From the NCBI RefSeq assembly GCF_900018785.1, contig NZ_FCOY01000007.1, forward strand, positions 557,313 to 621,312: 64,000 nt of DNA, given 5' to 3'. Both the position numbers and the translations under genes were made by a program. A model generated the notes under the pieces. It was not told the DNA's origin, ran no database searches, and saw only the letters and a program-made list of their open reading frames with translations. This document shows positions 52,461-60,580 of the stretch, piece by piece. Source of the stretch: Xanthomonas massiliensis. GTDB taxonomy: Bacteria; Pseudomonadota; Gammaproteobacteria; Xanthomonadales; Xanthomonadaceae. The number at the start of each line of letters is the position of its first letter. Position 1 is the stretch's first letter.

Positions 52461-52527
52461 CGCCGTCCCGGCCCGGCTTGCGTATGCTGTGCCCGGGGAA
52501 TCCAGCCAACACCACCGCATTGCCTTC

Positions 52528-53925
<1,398 letters not shown>

Positions 53926-54583
53926 GCGCCCTGCCAAACCGGTGCCTGAACCGAGCGGCGGCGGCCGGTGCAGATCTGCGCATGCATCGCGCAGCTGCAG
54001 GGCCAGCTCCCCCGGCGCGCTGCCAGCATCCGGGTTCGGCCACCCACCGGAGCCGCGTCGTCCACGCGGCGAGGCGCCGGCCGCCGGTCGCGACCCAGGG
54101 CCATGCCCAGGGTTCCTGGTCGCGGATCAGCCGCCCCCGGATACCAGGCGGCCCGATCCGTGCGCTTGTCGCCAGGCCGTGGTTCGCACGGGAGTCCGTT
54201 CGCTGTCCGCTGTCCGCGGGACGCACATGCCCGGTGCGAGAGTGACAGATCCAAGCAAGCGCATGGCAACCCCGCGGCCCGGCGGCAAGCGCCGGACGTG
54301 CCCCGAGCACTTGCGATAGGCGCTGTTCGCGTTCGGTAGGGATGCGATGCCAAGCCGTTGTTTTTTTGTGCTCGCTTCCTACACAACGTATTGAAAAAGC
54401 AAGCCATCCCTACCGAACGCGAACAGCGCCTTGCGATATCTGCCCATATCCAGGCGCCCCAGCTGCAGACCCGCCACCGGTCTGCCCGCGCCTGTCACGC
54501 GGTCGCGCCGTCTCCGGATCCCATTTCCGCCCTCCCGGATCGTCTTCCTACCCCGGCGGTTCGACATCGGCCCCCTGCATGCG
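53926..54583. other. Intergenic region between convergent pilR and PRC-barrel gene
   Basis: About 650 bases without a supported gene. The main content is the MITE-like element at 54319-54430. A small hairpin (53976-53994) may be the pilR terminator. The rest is GC-rich sequence without recognisable features. Confidence 0.6.
54311..54438. mobile_element. MITE-like element with perfect 26-bp terminal inverted repeats and 8-bp target duplication
   Basis: A 112-bp element (54319-54430) begins GGCGCTGTTCGCGTTCGGTA and ends with the exact reverse complement; both arms are 26 bp (54319-54344 and 54405-54430). The 60-bp AT-richer middle holds T7 and a second nested inverted pair, CGTTGT/ACAACG. Immediately outside, TTGCGATA occurs directly repeated on both sides (54311-54318 and 54431-54438), the form of an 8-bp target site duplication. 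It encodes nothing. It could be mobilised in trans by a transposase not in this window. A transcript would fold into a long hairpin. Confidence 0.8.
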
Positions 54584-54612
54584 AAAAAGGCCGCGGATCG
54601 CTCCACGGCCTT
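54584..54612 (-). terminator. Intrinsic terminator of the PRC-barrel gene
   Basis: Stem AAGGCCG / CGGCCTT with extra inner pairs, followed on the minus strand by five T. Located 47 bases past the stop codon. Confidence 0.75.
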
Positions 54613-54658: not shown

Positions 54659-55063
54659 CTACTTCGCGTACTGGAACGCTGGCAGCGCCTTGATCGCTGC
54701 CTGGGTCGCGCCCGGCAGCACGAACTTGCCGCCCTGGAAGCGGAAATTCCGTACCGGGATGGCGACGTTGTGGCGATCCAGCCCGACGAACCCGCCGGCC
54801 CCGACGATGGCGTAGGACACCGCGCTGTCCGGGGCGACGATGATGTCGTCGATGGTGCCGACCTTCTGGTTGGACTCGTTGAAGACGGCCTTGCCCAGGA
54901 TGTCCTTCTTGGCGCTCCAGCCCACCGCCACCGTGCGCAGTTCCTCCACCGACACGCCGACCTCGCTGGAGCCGGCCACCTGCGCCGAGGCGACACCGCT
55001 GGCACCCGCGGCCACCAGCGCCGCCACCGCCAACGGCGCCATCTTCCTGATCATCACGTTCAT
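54659..55063 (-). CDS. Exported PRC-barrel domain protein
   Basis: A 134-residue protein with a signal peptide (LAVAALVAAGASGVASAQ) and one PRC-barrel: VGWSAKKDILGKAVFNESNQKVGTIDDIIVAPDSAVSYAIVGAGGFVGLDRHNVAIPVRNF. Exported PRC-barrel proteins of this type bind or sense at the envelope, and some are stress-induced, but the function here is unknown. A GGGAG ribosome site sets the ATG at 55063. It stands alone between pilR and pilB. Confidence 0.85.
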   Translation of the reverse strand: MNVMIRKMAPLAVAALVAAGASGVASAQVAGSSEVGVSVEELRTVAVGWSAKKDILGKAVFNESNQKVGTIDDIIVAPDSAVSYAIVGAGGFVGLDRHNVAIPVRNFRFQGGKFVLPGATQAAIKALPAFQYAK

Positions 55064-55181
55064 GTGTTTCTCCCTAGTCTGGATGTTCCGCGGCGCCGGC
55101 ATCCACGCCGGCGACCGCGCATCCGCACGCTAGGCATGCACGCGTGAGCGCAGGGTGAGGCGGCGGCCTGCGCCGCCCCGG

Positions 55182-57084: not shown

Positions 57085-57252
57085 CTACCCCACGTCCGGA
57101 TTGTCCTGCTGGGCACGTGTTCCCGGGTGCGGCACCCTGCCGCGGTCGGGACTCCCCTCCCGACATTCCCCAAGAGGTGGCACCACCGCCGGCCGCGGAT
57201 CTCCCCGATCCCGCGCGTGACGCCCCGCATGGGCTCGTCGTGATCCGGCTCA
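57085..57252. repeat. 168-bp direct repeat, copy 1
   Basis: Starts CTACCCCACGTCCGGATTGT and ends GTGATCCGGCTCA. It is gap-free and identical to 60606-60773 except for 7 substitutions. It ends exactly at the truncated 3' end of the first RAYT gene and supplies its stop codon. No protein or RNA family is recognised in it. Confidence 0.88.
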
Positions 57253-57711
57253 TCCTGACGAATGAGGCCGCAGCCGCAGATTGGCTTGACAACTGGACCG
57301 GCGATAGTTGGCCGGATCGTCGGTAACGGCGGCCCGTACCGGGTTGGACTCGATGTGGCGACAGCACCGAAGCAGATGATCGTCGCTATGGACCAGGCAT
57401 GCCTTGTAGCGGCCCTCCCACAAGGTTCCAGTACGCCCATGACGACCGTTGAACAGGCCCACGCAACTGCGGTCCAGGCACTGCACCAGCCGCGCAATGG
57501 AATCGGCCGCGGCCGGAGTCAGGAGTAGATGAACAGGATTGTCCATCAGCACATGGGCATGGCGCCGGCAATCGTCATGATTCGCGGCGCCGCGCAGCGG
57601 CTGCAGGTAGCGGAGCCGGTCGCCATCATCGAGAAAACATGGCAACCGGTTATTGCCTCGCTGCATGACGTGCTGAATACCAGGGAGCGAGATGCGCGGT
57701 AGTCGGGCCAT
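57250..57711 (-). pseudogene. REP-associated tyrosine transposase (RAYT), degenerate and truncated copy
   Basis: A Y1-family (IS200/IS605-like) RAYT relative: MARLPRISLPGI start, RGNNRLPCFLDDGDRLRYL, and NGRHGRTGTLWEGRYKACLV are typical. The active site is broken. The HxH motif that reads NHVHLLL in the neighbouring copy is NPVHLLL here, and the tyrosine helix CYRYIELNPVRA has become CCRHIESNPVRA. The C-terminal ~60 residues are missing because the reading frame runs into the 168-bp repeat and stops. A remnant of the flanking GACCCCGTTATT motif lies at 57801-57813. Non-functional by inspection. Confidence 0.85.
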
Positions 57712-57832
57712 GCGCTACATGCTGGCCGATGCGAACGATCCCATCCCTCCGACATCCCCAGTAACCGCGAGTAAGGCGAAGGCCCCGCGTGCTGTAGGCA
57801 AGACCCCGTTATTCCCTTTGCTGCTCTGCTGT

Positions 57833-58219
57833 TCAGACCAGGACGATGTTCTTGTCGTAGCGGGCGACAGCGGCGTCGTGCGTCAACAGACGCAGAGGCT
57901 CGGACAAGGCCTGGGCAACGAGCATCCGATCAAACGGATCACCATGAAGCGGAGGCAACTGTTCGACCGCTGAAGCGTGATTCGCGCGCACTGGCAACAG
58001 ATCGTAGCCGGCGTCTTCGAAATAACCAAGCGCGCGAGCAGCGGAAACAGGCATGCCGCCACGCCCCAGGGAATGCTTGATCGCAATCTCCCAAACGCTG
58101 GCCACGCTTACCCATATGTCGTTGTCCGGCGCGCAGATCAGCTGCCGGGCTTCGGCCGACAACCTGGCATCATCGGCAATGGCCCACAACGCGATATGGG
58201 TATCCAGCAGCAGCCTCAC
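57833..58219 (-). CDS. PIN-domain toxin (VapC-like)
   Basis: A 128-residue PIN-domain RNase, probable toxin of a type II toxin-antitoxin pair. Acidic residues of the active site are in place: LLLDTHIALWAI, the Glu in SVASVWEIAIK, the Asp in GDPFDRMLVAQA and THDAAVARY. This is the subgroup usually paired with Phd-type antitoxins. The GTG start overlaps the antitoxin stop (GTGA) so both are translated together. It lies between two decayed RAYT copies. Confidence 0.9.
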   Translation of the reverse strand: MRLLLDTHIALWAIADDARLSAEARQLICAPDNDIWVSVASVWEIAIKHSLGRGGMPVSAARALGYFEDAGYDLLPVRANHASAVEQLPPLHGDPFDRMLVAQALSEPLRLLTHDAAVARYDKNIVLV

Positions 58220-58470
58220 TCCTGGATGCCCGTGAACAACGAGGCGATCTGCGGGTTGTCGGCGTCGATATCGGCCGGGACGACGAAGGCGCCGCGCGCC
58301 ACGCCGATACGGTGGGCGACGCCCTGTGCATCGCGCCGGATCGGCACCATGCGTACGGCCGGCTTGCCACTCCTGGCGATGATCACTTCGTCGATCACGC
58401 CATCCTCGATCTGGGCGACCAGCTTGGACAGATTGCTCTTGGCCTCGAACATGTTGACGGTGGTACTCAT
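58216..58470 (-). CDS. Phd/YefM-family antitoxin
   Basis: An 84-residue antitoxin with the Phd/YefM N-terminal DNA-binding fold (TVNMFEAKSNLSKLVAQIEDGVIDEVIIARSGKPAVRMVP) and a flexible C-terminus that should bind the PIN toxin downstream. Such antitoxins repress their own promoter, and the -10/-35 pair at 58497-58525 lies just upstream with a short AT-rich repeat-like operator (TTAGCTAGACTTAG). Confidence 0.9.
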   Translation of the reverse strand: MSTTVNMFEAKSNLSKLVAQIEDGVIDEVIIARSGKPAVRMVPIRRDAQGVAHRIGVARGAFVVPADIDADNPQIASLFTGIQE

Positions 58471-58496
58471 GGCGCCGCCTCGGATGGATTGAACTA

Positions 58497-58525
58497 AGTC
58501 TAGCTAACAAGTGTCATTGGTGCAA
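58497..58525 (-). promoter_or_regulatory. Promoter of the toxin-antitoxin operon
   Basis: On the minus strand: TTGCAC, a 17-base spacer and TAGACT, 27 bases before the antitoxin ATG. This is the best sigma-70-like pair in the window. Confidence 0.6.
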
Positions 58526-58576: not shown

Positions 58577-59167
58577 TTACTGAGGCTCGCCTGTCGAGCT
58601 CGCAGCAACTTTGCGAGGCCGATGTGCTGGCCTGGTAGCGACAAAGCGCTGAACCTTGGCTTGGACCATGGCCTGGAAGGGGGTCTTACCCAGTGCGCGC
58701 TGTTGTTGCAGGTACAGCCGGATGACCTTGAGGTCTTCCGGGGTCAAAGTTTCGTGCAGGAGCACCCGATAGGCTGCTGCGCGTTCGGCATCCGTGCGTC
58801 CCAGTGCCAGGAAGGTGGCGTGTGGGCTCAGGCCGGAATGCGGCCGCAAGCCCAGATTGGCCTGGCAGCTGGACCATCGATAGCTGGCCGGATCATCGGT
58901 GATGGCGGCCCGCACCGGGTTGAGCTCGATGTAGCGATAGCACCGCAGCAGATAATCATCGCTATCGACCAGGCAGGCCTTGTAGCGGCCTTCCCACAAG
59001 GTTCCAGTGCGTCCGTGCCGGCCATTGAACAAGGCCACGTAATTGCGGCCCAGCCGTTGCATCAGCCGCGCAATGGAATCGGCCGTGGCTGGAGTCGTAA
59101 GCTTCCCCGATCCGCAGACACCCCATAAGTAGAACTTTCTGGCATGTTTCCCCAGCCAGGAGGTTCC

Positions 59168-59434
59168 ATGAAGAAGTCCCGTTTCACCGAGACCCAGATC
59201 GTCTCGATCCTCAAGCAGGCCGACGCCGGCGTGCCGGTCAAGGACATCTGCCGGCAGGCCGGCATCAGCGTGCCGACCTACTACAAATGGAAATCGAAGT
59301 ACGGGGGCCTGGAGGCCTCGGAGCTGCGGCGGGTCAAGGACCTGGAAGCCGAGAACGCCAGGCTCAAGCGGATGTACGCCGAGCTGGCGCTCGACAACGC
59401 GGCGATGAAGGACCTGATCGCAAAAAAACTGTAG
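59168..59434 (+). CDS. IS3-family transposase OrfA
   Basis: An 88-residue OrfA: KKSRFTETQIVSILKQADAGVPVKDICRQAGISVPTYYKWKSKYGG is the helix-turn-helix, followed by a leucine-zipper-like helix (DLEAENARLKRMYAELALDNAAMKDLI). An AGGAGG ribosome site sits just before the ATG. The frame ends shortly after A7 (59422-59428), the likely -1 slippage site (C-AAA-AAA-A) producing the OrfAB transposase. Confidence 0.93.
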   Translation: MKKSRFTETQIVSILKQADAGVPVKDICRQAGISVPTYYKWKSKYGGLEASELRRVKDLEAENARLKRMYAELALDNAAMKDLIAKKL

Positions 59435-60279
59435 GGCCGGAGCAGAAGCGCGAGGCCGTGCGGTACCTGGTCGAGGTGCACGCGCGGCCCCTGAGCCGGT
59501 CCTGTGATTGCGTCGGGTTGTCGCGTGCGGCCTGGTATCAACCGCCGCTGCATTGGACCGTGCGCGACGCCGAGATCATCGCGGCACTGGCCGGGCAAGT
59601 CGAGAGTCGTCCGACGCGCGGCTTCTGGAAGTGCTGCAAGGTCCTGCGCCGTGCTCGGCCGGACTGGAACCACAAGCGAATCTACCGGGTGTACAAGGCC
59701 ATGGAACTCAACCTCCGTCGCAAGGCCAAGCAGCGGCTGCCCAAGCGCGAACGCGTGCCGCTGTACGTCCCGCGCCTGCCAGACACCGTCTGGTCGGCCG
59801 ACTTCATGGCCGATGCGCTGGCCTGTGGCCGTCGCTTCCGGACCTTCAACGTAGTCGACGACTTCAACCGCGAGGCGCTGCACATCGAGGTCGACACCTC
59901 GATCTCGTCCACGCGTCTGATCCGCATTTTTGAGCAGCTCAAGCGTGACCACGGCTTGCCGCAGGTCCTGCGCACCGACAACGGCCCGGAGTTCCTGGGC
60001 GAGACCTTCGTGCAGTGGGCCAAGCTCAACGGCATGGCCATCCGGTACATCCAGCCCGGCAAGCCCAACCAGAACGCCTACATCGAACGCTTCAACCGGA
60101 CCTTCCGCGAGGAGGTCCTGGACCAGCACCTGTTCACCCGCCTCGACGACGTACGCGAGGCGGCGTACTGGTGGATGCTCGAGTACAACGAGGAGCGTCC
60201 CCATGACTCGCTCGGCGACATGACGCCGGTCGAGTACCGTCAAGCCGCCGAAGGTTCTACTTTTGAAATGTCTGCTTGA
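59431..60279 (+). CDS. IS3-family transposase OrfB (DDE integrase domain)
   Basis: The -1 frame partner of OrfA. It has an HTH_21-like region (RSCDCVGLSRAAWYQPP...AEIIAALAGQVESRPTRGFWKCCKVLRR) and the rve DDE core: first Asp in TVWSADFMADAL, second in VLRTDNGPEFLG, and Glu in NAYIERFNRTFREEVLD. It ends WMLEYNEERPHDSLGDMTPVEYR as is standard for the family. It has no start of its own of good quality, so it is most likely made only as the OrfAB fusion. Confidence 0.92.
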   Translation, partial: VGPEQKREAVRYLVEVHARPLSRSCDCVGLSRAAWYQPPLHWTVRDAEIIAALAGQVESRPTRGFWKCCKVLRRARPDWNHKRIYRVYKAMELNLRRKAKQRLPKRERVPLYVPRLPDTVWSADFMADALACGRRFRTFNVVDDFNREALHIEVDTSISSTRLIRIFEQLKRDHGLPQVLRTDNGPEFLGETFVQWAKLNGMAIRYIQPGKPNQNAYIERFNRTFREEVLDQHLFTRLDDVREAAYWWMLEYNEERPHDSLGDMTPVEYRQAAEGSTFEMSA

Positions 60280-60580
60280 CGGGGAAGCTTACGGAGTGAG
60301 CAATAGATGGACATGATTGTCCATCAGTACATACGCATGAAGCCGACAATCGCAATGATGCAGGGCATCGCGCAGCAGGTGCAGGTAGCGGAGCCGGTCG
60401 CCATCGTCGAGAAAGCACGGCAGCCGGTTGTTGCCTCGCTACACGACGTGCTGAGGAATGCCGGGAAGCGAGATGCGCGGTAGTCGGGCCATGCGCTACA
60501 CCCTGACCGATACGATCGTTTTCATCCCTCCGGCATGCCAGTCGCCGCAAGTAAGGCAAAAGCCCTGTTCACCATAGGCA

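Follow-up and report, generated by a model that had tools for sequence, protein, structure and literature searches.

How did a long, perfect inverted repeat come to lie between two convergent genes of Xanthomonas massiliensis, and what could have put it there? The earlier note on this DNA had described a 112-bp non-coding element with perfect 26-bp inverted ends and an 8-bp flanking duplication, placed between the converging pilR and PRC-barrel genes, and had read it as a recently moved miniature element (MITE). We examined the anatomy of the element, its surroundings within the window (the whole 64,000-nucleotide stretch of DNA analysed) and its possible relatives and mobilisers. The features of the locus are as follows.

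52525–53925, plus strand: gene of a pilR-type sigma-54 response regulator (receiver, sigma-54 interaction and Fis-type HTH domains), flanking, outside the element.
54311–54318, no strand: left 8-bp copy of the target-site duplication, TTGCGATA, an exact direct repeat abutting the inverted repeat.
54319–54344, plus strand: left terminal inverted repeat, 26 bp, GGCGCTGTTCGCGTTCGGTAGGGATG, read from the sequence.
54345–54404, no strand: interior, 60 bp, 45% GC, covered by ORF, Rfam, terminator and promoter scans.
54405–54430, minus strand: right terminal inverted repeat, 26 bp, CATCCCTACCGAACGCGAACAGCGCC, perfectly reverse-complementary to the left arm, read from the sequence.
54431–54438, no strand: right 8-bp copy of the target-site duplication, TTGCGATA, read from the sequence.
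54659–55102, minus strand: PRC-barrel protein gene, converging on pilR, outside the element.

Direct reading of the sequence gave an element of 112 bp (54319–54430), laid out as TTGCGATA, GGCGCTGTTCGCGTTCGGTAGGGATG, 60 bp, CATCCCTACCGAACGCGAACAGCGCC and TTGCGATA with arms complementary at 26 of 26 positions, exactly as had been described. A repeat search returned arms of 27 bp, as it counted in one chance A/T pair between the two target repeats (final base of the left copy, initial base of the right). Moving the boundary one base outward, to 114 bp, destroys the direct repeat; the consistent reading is therefore an element of 112 bp flanked by an 8-bp duplication. The ORF list contained no frame confined to the element, which bears out its description as non-coding. 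Furthermore, terminator and promoter scans recognised no consensus on it, and it had no Rfam match. The GC content of the interior compares with 69% in the window, where 2.6% of 60-mers are equally AT-rich.

Such an arrangement is rare by chance. In a window scan for perfect inverted repeats with arms of at least 12 bp and a span of up to 400 bp, the element was the sole one with arms above 15 bp (27 bp in this count, next longest 15 bp), and the longest arm in 20 mononucleotide-shuffled windows was 16 bp. Among the other inverted repeats listed in the scan, none had abutting direct repeats of at least 3 bp, and the chance of a given 8-bp direct repeat is about 4^-8. In dinucleotide shuffles the arm was expected 0 times, even with up to three mismatches allowed.

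The placement between converging genes was confirmed: pilR, on the plus strand, ends at 53925, the PRC-barrel gene, on the minus strand, ends at 54659, and the 733-bp spacer between them holds the element. A pilB-type ATPase gene comes after the PRC-barrel gene. Since the insertion lies downstream of both neighbours, little effect on either is expected, and as it touches no gene, type IV pili are not expected to be affected. On the minus strand near 54582–54611, a GC-rich stem with T residues behind it, seen by eye and not matched in the terminator scan, is likely the terminator of the PRC-barrel gene. Elsewhere in the spacer, positions 53960–54044 matched, with 76% identity across 85 bp, the coding DNA of a dynamin-like GTPase in the same genome (C6:742656-742739, locus L122). 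This part is possibly a decayed gene fragment, a reading that would fit a spacer far longer than that of the relative described next.

Among 100 relatives searched, the same pilR/PRC-barrel gene pair was found only in G001, which belongs to a different genus and whose PRC-barrel protein is 71% identical. There the gap between the two genes is 78 bp and contains no trace of the element, which counts against an ancient conserved structure. The two spacers do not align, so that G001 does not offer a formal, base-for-base empty site. A precise empty site was not found among the sampled relatives, which include no other species of the element's genus and lack a close relative with the same spacer. 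A search of GTDB with the PRC-barrel protein yielded no confirmed relatives.

A full-length search of its own genome (3.69 Mb in 7 contigs) found the element at this one place. BLAST searches with the 112 bp gave only short matches, and no second copy, in 395 family, 398 order and 369 class genomes; these samples overlap and comprise roughly 1,100 genomes altogether. No exact match to a 22-mer of the arm occurred in the 84,980 species genomes of the GTDB collection or in viral contigs, plasmid and phage records contained nothing similar to the element, and a full-text search of papers returned no match to the arm. An 18-mer of the arm tip was found in ten viral contigs, each time as a single copy that diverged directly beyond the match, and near matches to the arm in six genomes (G204, G196, G159, G072, G089 and G631) were likewise single-ended and divergent at once. 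Of the two loci whose reading frames were checked in detail, L109 and L110, the former has its match in a long open frame (RLFAFGMDAWNLV). These near matches were rejected as relatives of the element and taken as coincidence, because they are single-ended, immediately divergent and apparently coding, with LFAFG-type peptides such as LFAFGMDA. Thus neither a further copy of the 26-bp arms in the complete or related genomes nor an autonomous element with the same ends, both of which the earlier note had proposed to look for, appeared in the own genome or in any collection searched. That note would have given up its reading for a sequence that had no other copy and was an ancient feature of the orthologous locus, or whose arms belonged to a conserved RNA structure. 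The lack of other copies was indeed observed; ancient conservation and a conserved RNA were not.

Taken together, the 112 bp are probably a MITE-like transposable element that is non-autonomous and owes its insertion to a DDE transposase generating 8-bp target duplications. The mobility of the element is well supported. As judged from the anatomy, a DDE transposase supplied in trans would have recognised the two identical 26-bp ends, cut or copied the element and joined it to the pilR/PRC-barrel spacer at nicks staggered by 8 bp, and gap repair would have yielded the TTGCGATA duplication. A recent move would fit the perfect repeats, though they do not prove it. Of the label MITE, the part that stands is a non-coding insertion with the hallmarks of a transposon; membership of a MITE family and the mobiliser are unproven, because two features usual in MITEs, further copies and an autonomous element with the same ends, were looked for and not found. 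The AT-rich interior, the single copy and the absence from the orthologous gene pair suggest that the element was probably carried in from elsewhere. Similarly, as the genome yielded no matching transposase, the element is probably stranded now, its mobiliser lost or absent.

It is unlikely, though the best of the alternatives, that a full-length insertion sequence (IS) arrived at this site and lost its transposase gene in place. Such a remnant would be single-copy, would have intact ends within a target duplication and might have no relatives, all as observed. However, both ends are intact to 26 bp, the 60 bp between them hold no recognisable transposase remnant, and no full-length relative is known. 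Judged from this sequence, movement as a 112-bp miniature element is more likely than deletion in place, because both ends are intact with merely 60 bp between them.

A hairpin maintained by the host between the convergent genes, be it a bidirectional terminator, an RNA or a protein-binding palindrome, would agree with the site between two 3' ends and with the very stable predicted fold of the element (−63.9 kcal/mol as RNA, z −10.3; −41.5 kcal/mol as DNA, z −10.9). Such stability is, however, expected of any long inverted repeat, the scans recognised neither a U-tract terminator nor an Rfam family, and the element is missing from the orthologous gene pair. As this explanation also leaves the exactly abutting 8-bp direct repeat unaccounted for, we consider it very improbable.

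That RAYT-like genes 3–6 kb downstream (57250–57711, and 58577–59062 continued at 60292–60539) made the element as a REP/BIME-type palindrome is scarcely credible despite the GTAG within its arm, as REPs are high-copy and short (PMC3733652) and the genome has no further copy of the arm outside this element. The element is thus no multicopy REP. As to the RAYT-like region itself, the second gene is interrupted by an IS3-type element (59096–60293), and its flanks (58836–59096 and 60292–60539) are 83–85% identical to the first gene (57260–57758). Between the two genes lie a PIN-domain protein and a small upstream antitoxin-like partner (57833–58510 and 58216–58470), likely a type II toxin-antitoxin pair.

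With a MITE-like element as the preferred reading, the question of its mobiliser follows. An 8-bp duplication and ends starting with GG are compatible with the IS6, IS256, ISL3 and some other families. Searches of the own genome for IS6, IS256 and ISL3 transposases found none; IS66, ISAs1, IS1 and ISKra4 are other families with 8-bp duplications. In the IS3 element of the window, the ends are CGTAAGCTTCCCCG and the duplication is 4 bp long (GAGT); the ends of the 112-bp element are indeed different, as had been stated. Nine IS1595-type transposase matches, mostly near-identical copies with 8-bp duplications, were found in the own genome. An IS1595 (ISXO2-type) parent was nevertheless rejected because of the ends of these resident elements, CCTGATTAGC (CCTGATTAG ends), which are unrelated to the arms. 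The IS1595-type element itself is about 1.06 kb long and present in about eight near-identical copies on contigs C4, C5, C6 and C7 (loci L039, L045 and L048). As the copies are near-identical and their 8-bp duplications intact where read, the genome holds a recently active IS.

The IS6/IS26 group shares the 8-bp duplication, and the first nine bases of the element, GGCGCTGTT, agree with the consensus of IS6 ends, GGTTCTGTTGCAAA, except at the two positions where this consensus varies most. Positions 10–14, in contrast, all differ (CGCGT in the element, GCAAA in the consensus), including the highly conserved G10 (PMC6807381). A derivation from IS6/IS26 was therefore rejected: G1, G2 and G7 are present, but the 14-bp end GGNNCTGTTGCAAA is not matched, with G10 and positions 11–14 differing. 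The two MITEs listed for the IS6 family measure 227 and 336 bp (PMC7986276). Duplications of 8 bp were also seen at the IS256 and ISL3 loci examined in relatives. IS256 has long terminal repeats as well, and its ends in order-level relatives are, for example, GGACCTGTCCG and GGGACTGTCC; against a small set of reference ends, they resembled the arm no better than shuffled arms did. For the ISL3 ends (GGCTCTTCG / GGTTCTTCG), likewise with few reference ends, similarity to the arm lay in the same range as for shuffled arms (p about 0.07–0.2). Matching ends were not found at the IS256 and ISL3 loci examined in relatives. The parent is therefore missing from the searched data or belongs to an IS family outside those searched. 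That the 26-bp ends are the sole trace so far of an undescribed transposon family or subgroup, whose parent would make 8-bp duplications and have GGCGCTGTTCGCG ends, is a doubtful suggestion.

In its general build the element resembles MITEPsy1, MITEAba12, RUP and Correia/NEMIS, which are around 100–115 bp long, noncoding and AT-rich, with terminal inverted repeats and a target-site duplication (PMC3189936, PMC6382973, PMC2229807). MITEPsy1 measures 100 bp (PMC3189936), MITEAba12 111–114 bp (PMC6382973), and Correia/NEMIS elements have 24-bp terminal inverted repeats (PMC2229807). The duplication of 8 bp differs in length from those of MITEPsy1 (4 bp) and MITEAba12 (9 bp). Furthermore, these MITEs occur in multiple copies, and for some of them a parent IS has been identified, whereas the present element is single-copy and no parent was found. 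It is thus of a kind already known, MITE-like, and an orphan among all data searched. As such, it illustrates cleanly what a stranded miniature element looks like: it has the hallmarks of transposition, and no relative turned up in its own genome or among the roughly 1,100 genomes sampled from its family, order and class. If its parent were found, the orphan would be linked to its transposase and would indicate a source from which this lineage acquired DNA horizontally.
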